Shown here: positions 29,908 to 31,642 of the stretch, in pieces | Layout of the letters: each line of letters starts with the position of its first letter | Numbering within the stretch: the stretch's first letter is position 1 | NCBI GenBank assembly: GCA_027592745.1 | Contig: JAQCLG010000014.1 | Span: forward strand, 1 to 42,625 | DNA: 42,625 nt | Direction of reading: 5' to 3' | From: Pseudomonadota bacterium | Lineage (GTDB): Bacteria > Pseudomonadota > Alphaproteobacteria > SP197 | The notes under the pieces: generated by a model | What the model was told of the DNA's origin: nothing | The model's database searches: none | What the model saw: only the letters and a program-made list of their open reading frames with translations | Program-made: the position numbers and the translations under genes

Positions 29908-30327
29908 ATGAAGTATCTGCACACCATGGTTCGCGTCACCGATCTCGACGCCTCGCTTGCCTTCTACTGCGACAAGCTGGGCCTCAAGGAGATCAACCGC
30001 TACGACAGCGAGAAGGGCCGCTTCAGCCTGATCTTCCTGGCCGCCCCCGGCGACGAGGAAGCCCAGGTCGAGCTGACCCATAACTGGGATCCCGAGCCCT
30101 ATGACGGCGGCCGCAACTTCGGCCACCTGGCCTACGAGGTCGATGACATCTATGCCTCGTGCCAGCGCCTGATGGATGGCGGCGTGACGATCAACCGTCC
30201 GCCGCGCGACGGTCACATGGCCTTCGTGCGTTCGCCCGACGGCATCTCGATCGAACTGCTGCAGAAGGGCGATGCCCTGGCGCCGGCCGAACCCTGGGCC
30301 TCGATGCCCAATACCGGCGTCTGGTAG
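29908..30327 (+). CDS. glyoxalase I-like (lactoylglutathione lyase)
   Basis: MKYLHTMVRVTDLDASLAFYCDKLGLKEINRYDSEKGRFSLIFLAAPGD...GHLAYEVDDIY...FVRSPDGISIELLQKG. Confidence 0.9.
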   Translation: MKYLHTMVRVTDLDASLAFYCDKLGLKEINRYDSEKGRFSLIFLAAPGDEEAQVELTHNWDPEPYDGGRNFGHLAYEVDDIYASCQRLMDGGVTINRPPRDGHMAFVRSPDGISIELLQKGDALAPAEPWASMPNTGVW

Positions 30328-30331
30328 GCGC

Positions 30332-30485
30332 CTGATACCAAGCGCCCTGGATCGGAACCGATCCATGGCGCTGCCTCAATCGCCGGCGCCCGCTGGGCGG
30401 GCTTGGCTTTCGCGGCAGTGGCCGCGGCGCGCGGTCGCGCGCTGCCAAGGTCCGATGAGTTCAACTCATCGCACCCTGGTATCAG
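30332..30485. repeat. 154-bp multi-hairpin element with perfect 9-bp terminal inverted repeats
   Basis: CTGATACCA (30332-30340) / TGGTATCAG (30477-30485); internal hairpins TGGATCGG-AA-CCGATCCA (30348-30365, extended by AGCGCC/GGCGCT), GCCCGC-TGG-GCGGGC (30388-30402), CGATGAGTT-C-AACTCATCG (30453-30471). Confidence 0.75.
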
Positions 30486-31642
30486 CCCTTCGCCGGGCCG
30501 ATCAGTTTCAGTACCGCATCCGCCGCCCGTGCGCTGGGCGGCGGGCCTCCTCGACCAAGGGCCGCCATGACATCGTGCATGGCGGCCTTCTGCGTGGCGA
30601 TGGCTTGCCGGTCGCCCATCAGGGTACCGAGGGCCTGCGCAAGAGCCGTCGGTGTGCAGGCTTCCTGGAGCAGTTCGGGCGTGACACGCCTGCCTGCGAC
30701 CAGGTTGACGGGCGAAGCGGTGTCGATGCGCACCATGCGCCGCACCACCATGGCCGTGAGGGCGTTGGCGCGGTAGGCGATGACATGGGGCGTTGCCACC
30801 GCCGCCAGTTCCAGCGCGACGGTGCCCGAGGTCGCAAGCGCAGCATCGGCCGCGGCCATGACAGCCAGCCGTTCGGCCACGCCGCCCTCGACGACGCTGA
30901 CCGGGACCGGCCAGCCGGCAACTTCCGCCGCGATGAACGTTGCCAGACCGGGCACGGTCGGGATGGCCACCGTAAGCCCGGGATGATCCTTGCCGAGGCG
31001 TTCGACCGCACTCCTGAAGATCGGCAGGTGCCGGGCGACGACCCCGCGCCGGCTTCCCGGCAGGACCGCCAGCAGGGGACCCTCGTGCCCCGCAAGCAGG
31101 CGGCTGCGCATGGCGGCGCGGGTTTCCTCGTCCACACGGGCCGCTGCCGCCGGGTGGCCGACCTCTACCCAGTCCAGGCCGACGGCATCCCAATAGGGTC
31201 CCTCGAAGGGGAAGAGCAGCAGCACGCGGTCGACCACCCGGGCGAGGTGGCGGGCACGCCAGGGTTTCCAGGCCCACACCGTCGGTGCGACGTACTGGAC
31301 GATGGGACAGGGTGCTGGGGCGAGCTTGCGGGCGACGCGGCAGGAGAAACTCTGGGAATCGATCGTGACGACGATGGCAGGCCGCAGCGCGCGCACGGCG
31401 CGCACGGTCTCGTCGATCCGGCGCAGGATGCGGCGCAGGCTGGGCAGCACCTCGATCAGGCCCATCACCGAAAGGTCCGTCATGGGAAAGATGCTCTCCA
31501 GGCCCTGCTCGGCCATGGCCGGACCGCCGACGCCGGCAAATCGGATGCGACCCCCGGTAAGCTCGCGCAGGGCCGCCATGAGGGCGCCGCCCAGGACGTC
31601 GCCGGACGGCTCTCCCGCCACCAGGAAGACGAGCGGCTCCAC
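30482..31642 (-). CDS. lpxB: lipid-A-disaccharide synthase
   Basis: MEPLVFLVAGEPSGDVLGGALMAALRE...FAGVGGPAMAEQGLES...PIVQYVAPTVWAWKPWR. Confidence 0.96.
   Translation of the reverse strand: MEPLVFLVAGEPSGDVLGGALMAALRELTGGRIRFAGVGGPAMAEQGLESIFPMTDLSVMGLIEVLPSLRRILRRIDETVRAVRALRPAIVVTIDSQSFSCRVARKLAPAPCPIVQYVAPTVWAWKPWRARHLARVVDRVLLLFPFEGPYWDAVGLDWVEVGHPAAAARVDEETRAAMRSRLLAGHEGPLLAVLPGSRRGVVARHLPIFRSAVERLGKDHPGLTVAIPTVPGLATFIAAEVAGWPVPVSVVEGGVAERLAVMAAADAALATSGTVALELAAVATPHVIAYRANALTAMVVRRMVRIDTASPVNLVAGRRVTPELLQEACTPTALAQALGTLMGDRQAIATQKAAMHDVMAALGRGGPPPSARAADAVLKLIGPAKG

Follow-up and report, generated by a model that had tools for sequence, protein, structure and literature searches.

The multi-hairpin sequence that separates the convergent glyoxalase-family gene and lpxB in the window (the whole 42,625-nucleotide stretch of DNA analysed here) is, judging from sequence comparisons, very probably a non-autonomous transposon (MITE) of an IS630-family insertion sequence (IS), a reading to which we give a probability of about 0.92. 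The element is 146 bp long, has no transposase gene and carries TACCA-N8-(T/G)GA at both ends. Its position and parts, together with the flanking genes, are as follows.

29908-30327, plus strand: glyoxalase-family gene (PF00903), upstream of the MITE; stop codon TAG at 30325-30327
30333-30335: left target-site copy (TNA, here TGA), one base diverged from the TCA at the right; family target-site duplication
30336-30481, plus strand: probable complete IS630-type MITE, 146 bp, TACCA...TGGTA, recognized from copies and their alignment, with limits from element-free sites
30336-30359, plus strand: left end, TACCAAGCGCCCTGGATCGGAACC
30341-30372: hairpin A, the left terminal palindrome (helix 2 in the alignment, with both-side changes in 8 of 12 pairs)
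30373-30452, plus strand: core, CCTCAATCGCCGG...CTTGGCTTTCGC...TGCCAAG, with three small palindromes
30388-30402: core palindrome GCCCGC-TGG-GCGGGC
30403-30448: TTGGC...GCCAA arm with GCGGC and GCGCGC palindromes
30453-30471: hairpin B, the right terminal palindrome, CGATGAGTTCAACTCATCG
30457-30481, minus strand: right end, read from the outside in, TACCAGGGTGCGATGAGTTGAACTC; its TACCA-N8-TGAGT pattern is also found in the right end of the IS630 of the same genome (G000)
30482-30484, minus strand: right target-site copy TCA, which is the lpxB TGA stop codon; a stop lies at the orthologous place in the element-free site
30482-31642, minus strand: lpxB open reading frame (LpxB by PF02684, E 1.2e-86)

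The initial annotation had described 30332-30485 as a 154-bp element closed by perfect terminal inverted repeats. Every inverted repeat that it listed is present: the outer repeat CTGATACCA (30332-30340) and TGGTATCAG (30477-30485); hairpin A, AGCGCC-c-TGGATCGG-AA-CCGATCCA-t-GGCGCT (30341-30372); the TTGGC/GCCAA arm (30403-30448), with inner CGCGGC..GCCGCG and GCGCGC..GCGCGC; and hairpin B, CGATGAGTT-C-AACTCATCG (30453-30471). The suggested folding test gave a 154-bp stretch far more stable than its shuffles, with a minimum free energy of -94.8 kcal/mol compared with -65.7 +/- 4.1 kcal/mol for 200 dinucleotide shuffles, none of which was as good (z = -7.16). The letters of the outer repeat do pair as described, but the outer TGA (30333-30335) and TCA (30482-30484) are best read as copies of the target, and the element itself as 30336-30481. 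We thus regard the outer CTGA/TCAG on sequence grounds as target DNA and not as terminal repeat, because element-free sites place the limits of the insertion at TACCA...TGGTA plus one TNA.

Aligned copies of the family have the TACCA...TGGTA ends in common, with TNA outside them on both sides. The middle base N was identical in 78 of the 99 copies flanked by TNA at left and right, where 27% would be expected (P about 7e-27, although copies within one genome are not fully independent), which argues that the family makes a 3-bp direct duplication of a TNA target. The earlier statement that no target-site duplication is visible is therefore wrong for the family; in the window copy the target bases are TGA and TCA, which differ in the middle base, so that the duplication is inexact and hidden.

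Element-free sites were sought by searching the joined flanks of copies in the family of G188. Three sites have element-free orthologues, all in the Niveispirillum group (L105 compared with G436; L106 with G429, G283, G438 and G434; L137 with G432), in which TACC..GGTA and one copy of TNA are absent and a single TTA is left. The cleanest pairs are L105/L344, L106/L348 and L106/L349; some alignments at element-free sites have a few gaps beside the junction. The site of the window copy is also element-free in a genome of the same genus (G001), where about 20 bp separate the matching parts of gloA and lpxB and the junction carries TCA, the lpxB stop. The proposed check for empty sites thus succeeded, including at gloA-lpxB itself. 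By contrast, the description of the element as filling the intergenic space does not hold, since the gloA and lpxB stops of G001 lie a few bases apart without it.

The element is not a single-copy sequence, having further copies both in its own genome and in relatives. Three full copies, with identities of 87-100%, are present in the genome of the window (the other two match the window copy at 90% and 87% identity), together with diverged and partial copies. The same sequence was found in 12 of 60 relatives, among them a metagenome genome from a lake that belongs to a different family and has 13 near-identical copies (Baikal-deep-G43). A covariance model built from eight copies, which takes in the target bases on each side, matched 35 of 385 genomes of Alphaproteobacteria, or 30 of the 277 genera covered. 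When 399 genomes were sampled across the phylum, the 13 that matched all came from this class. All 11 genomes of the Niveispirillum group carry the MITE, with 3 to at least 150 copies each. Hosts known by name, found with the core alone as the search pattern, include Azospirillum sp. RU38E, Niveispirillum, Aerophototrophica, Magnetospirillum, Telmatospirillum, Roseococcus, Novispirillum and sphingomonads. The copy from the Baikal metagenome genome had no match in the plasmid collection, in which other copies matched only Methylobacterium, Methylorubrum, Niveispirillum and Tistrella. Six contigs of the metagenome genome G026 (C31, C32, C66, C7, C50 and C55) end within the repeat, which therefore breaks assemblies and leaves the copy number of G026 underestimated. 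An open-access literature search on RIME and on repeats of Magnetospirillum, Azospirillum and Niveispirillum found nothing relevant.

The genome of the window also holds an IS630-family IS of 1,165 bp (G000:C159, L291 1425-2589). A run of A divides its transposase gene into two frames, possibly a programmed frameshift, and the flanks of the IS, CCA and TAA, form no exact target-site duplication. The left end of this IS, TACCAACGGCCATTGATCAGGACC, is identical at 19 of 24 positions to the left end of another MITE copy in the genome (L002, TACCAAGCGCCATGGATCGGAACC), and the right ends of the G000 MITE and IS have TACCA-N8-TGA followed by GACT in common. Averaged over families, identity between MITE and IS ends beyond TACCA is 12.2 of 19 positions, compared with 7.9 for shuffled ends (maximum 9.25 in 2,000). 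The partner IS proteins belong to the IS630 family and have HTH and DDE_3 domains (NCBIfam, Pfam). IS copies with clear ends have exact TNA duplications: TCA, TTA, TAA and TCA in four copies of G359, TGA in one of G003 and TTA in one of G339. MITE and IS occur together in 15 genomes, compared with 4.3 expected (P 1.2e-6, uncorrected for relatedness). The IS protein used as query had no match in 20 of the 35 MITE genomes, in which the partner may have been lost, may be more diverged or may be another IS. The TNA target had hinted at a partner of IS4/IS5 type; PF01609 transposases are present in 13 genomes, and the loci fetched contained no TACCA-ended IS, so this candidate was rejected. A degenerate IS630-family transposase with TACCA ends adjoins a MITE copy in G005, where the degenerate IS630, a small TACCA-ended element and a full MITE form one cluster (L045 224-1656, G005:C20).

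The MITE-like option of the initial annotation is borne out by further copies in the genome, element-free sites, the duplicated target and an IS whose ends match, and an ordinary IS630-type transposase probably moves the MITE. The sequences show that TACCA...TGGTA entered a 3-bp TNA target, which was duplicated. The MITE ends resemble those of the IS630 in the same genome, left to left and right to right, and this IS group makes the same TNA duplication. In the mechanism that we propose, the IS630 transposase would recognize the MITE ends in trans and move the MITE as it moves its own IS. TNA covers the stop codons TAA and TGA, and GC-rich genomes have few TNA outside genes; for these reasons surviving insertions would often lie exactly in a stop codon, and the gene, here lpxB, would be unharmed because the duplicated TNA restores the stop.

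The distribution of insertions is in keeping with this scheme. Among 146 insertions with enough flank, a target copy falls exactly on the stop codon of a gene-like frame in 68, compared with 61 of 861 other TNA within 80 bp (odds ratio 11, with crude gene calls that use open frame and GC3 only). When the comparison is confined to TNA that are non-coding or stop, 53 of 101 are on a stop compared with about 38 expected (z about 5). Because the excess shrinks to this level once non-coding TNA are allowed for, most of it is attributable to the TNA target together with the loss of intragenic insertions, and a modest extra remains. The idea that stop codons are specifically recognized is weakened by the same drop. 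Insertion that restores the stop would offer a transposon an uncomplicated means of survival where genomes are compact and GC-rich; it also brings new hairpins immediately downstream of genes such as lpxB.

The conservation of the hairpins could reflect a function of the transcript, an option raised at the outset as a structured RNA or 3'-UTR: folding of the transcript, for instance to shield mRNA 3' ends or to terminate transcription, would then be why the hairpins persist. The very stable fold and the frequent position directly after stop codons fit this explanation, as do compensatory changes in most helices. In an alignment of 24 copies (MAFFT alignment A5, with the misplaced row L127 kept in the pair counts and removed for the G.U and A.C counts), 86% of cells are paired, a share that falls to 32-43% when the partners are slid, and both members have changed in 28 of the 41 pairs. 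However, selection on one RNA strand should favour G.U, and imperfect pairs show no excess of G.U over A.C (6 and 6 in hairpin A, 22 and 37 in hairpin B, 6 and 9 in the core hairpin, one constant G.T column of the core being set aside). The element lies in either orientation with respect to its gene (42 and 27, P 0.09, not significant), and Rfam gave no match to the MITE at the gathering score, its one match being a chance snoRNA match elsewhere. The element has no T-tract, as had been noted, so there is no support for a canonical bidirectional intrinsic terminator either. With no Rfam match and G.U not above A.C, we consider RNA function an improbable reason for the hairpins. Because G.U does not exceed A.C, the compensatory changes appear to keep the palindromes at the level of DNA, where selection on some role of the DNA, or else palindrome-templated repair, might hold the terminal and core palindromes. 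In the second case, template switching at quasi-palindromes would keep the arms matched in a neutral MITE without selection. The near-perfect palindromes, the equality of G.U and A.C, and arms that differ in sequence across genomes yet remain paired are all consistent with such correction, but hairpin positions, loops and core motifs recur across the class, which suggests some constraint; we think it a real possibility, with the odds somewhat against it. It concerns the persistence of the hairpins alone and is compatible with the MITE reading. The case of this MITE warns that compensatory changes by themselves are no proof of a structured RNA.

A different question is whether the MITE belongs to a repeat family already described. 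The CIR (CcrM-associated intergenic repeats) of Caulobacter and Brucella, as tabulated in PMC2229807 from Chen and Shapiro (2003), are alphaproteobacterial intergenic elements of about 110 bp with TA termini, two palindromic arms joined by a linker, and GANTC at a terminal loop. Likened by that description alone, the two have a similar host group, size, arms and TA ends; hairpin A, core and hairpin B correspond to two arms with a linker. The hairpin B loops are GATGAGTC in many families, where GAGTC fits GANTC, and GANTC lies in the last 40 bp of 28 of the 56 copies of set A2. The 118-bp versions of Methylobacterium type in G295 (L108-L110), with two palindromic arms, a short linker and GAGTC in a loop, match the architecture given there. 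GANTC is nevertheless absent from the window copy and present in only 3 of 66 Niveispirillum-group copies (set A4), and the same tabulation lists CIR without terminal inverted repeats, with target duplication unknown and no partner transposase known, whereas the present MITE has terminal repeats, TNA duplication and an IS630 with matching ends. Membership of CIR is in our view unlikely but deserves weight, as mobility would then be a property of CIR too. Short, palindromic, intergenic and abundant elements also recall REP or REPIN sequences moved by a RAYT (a Y1 single-strand transposase), and a solo hairpin (L113) and the core tandem arrays described below resemble BIMEs. REP/IS200-type transposition makes no target duplication. 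The 3-bp duplication led us to reject a REPIN/RAYT identity, which, given also the element-free sites and terminal repeats matching a DDE IS630, is most improbable.

For the MITE as an IS630-type element, the best functional parallel, likened by description and not by sequence, is RUP of Streptococcus pneumoniae, a high-copy 107-bp intergenic MITE whose ends match IS630-Spn1 of the same genome (PMC2229807, PMC3049150). RUP inserts at TA, whereas the present MITE uses TNA with a 3-bp duplication and has a multi-hairpin core and class-wide spread. Correia/NEMIS elements of Neisseria are likewise about 105-155 bp long and of high copy number, with terminal inverted repeats, target-site duplication and TA at the termini, but they have 24-bp terminal repeats of another sequence, other hosts and no paired terminal hairpins described (PMC2229807). 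BOX elements of S. pneumoniae are also linked to stop codons, supplying the stop of the gene in 36 of 58 overlapping coding sequences (PMC3049150); in the present MITE the reading frame is instead unchanged, because the target that is duplicated is the stop codon. The partner IS resembles IS630/Tc1/mariner elements such as ISY100 in its HTH and DDE_3 transposase and terminal inverted repeats (PMC2170065). For IS630 elements, ISY100 among them, the published description is insertion at TA with duplication of TA (PMC2170065), whereas MITE and partner IS both have a 3-bp TNA duplication, a departure from the TA rule that is unexpected for the family. What is new in this IS630-type MITE family is thus the TNA duplication and the composite build; if CIR are the same, part is already known. 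A probable transposase and a rule of insertion can now be assigned to a recurrent, unannotated structured repeat of many Alphaproteobacteria.

The core, CCCTCA-nn-CGCCGGGCG...CTTGGCTT, also occurs in tandem arrays with units of about 100-116 bp that have no TACCA ends, in Terasakiella, Telmatospirillum, an Acetobacteraceae bacterium and G318. Because these arrays occur without IS630 ends, the core is a repeat in its own right, either carried by the MITE or escaped from it. Tentatively, and at slightly less than even odds, we suggest that an alphaproteobacterial IS630 subgroup has shifted its target from TA to a stop-codon-sized TNA, with a hairpin-ended MITE whose class-wide palindromic core spreads by itself in tandem arrays. 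Were this so, stop codons would be safe insertion sites throughout the genome and the 3' ends of many genes would have been re-modelled.

Several loci show other arrangements of these parts. Core arrays of 3-5 units lie at L164 3224-3560, L174 55-370, L168 2140-2620 and L097 2430-2790. The solo palindrome in G026 (L113 1501-1542, G026:C2:2868), 42 bp long and reading TACCAGGTCTCGATGATCG...CTGGTA between TAA and TTA, is an element reduced to one hairpin. A core-only copy lies on a plasmid of Niveispirillum cyanobacteriorum (L503 1493-1585), directly behind the stop codon of an annotated acyl-CoA dehydrogenase gene. Locus L097 (4508-4969, G318:C5) also holds a second MITE, of 462 bp, with the same TACCA type of end, terminal inverted repeats exceeding 35 bp and a flanking TAA at each end, which folds as one long hairpin.
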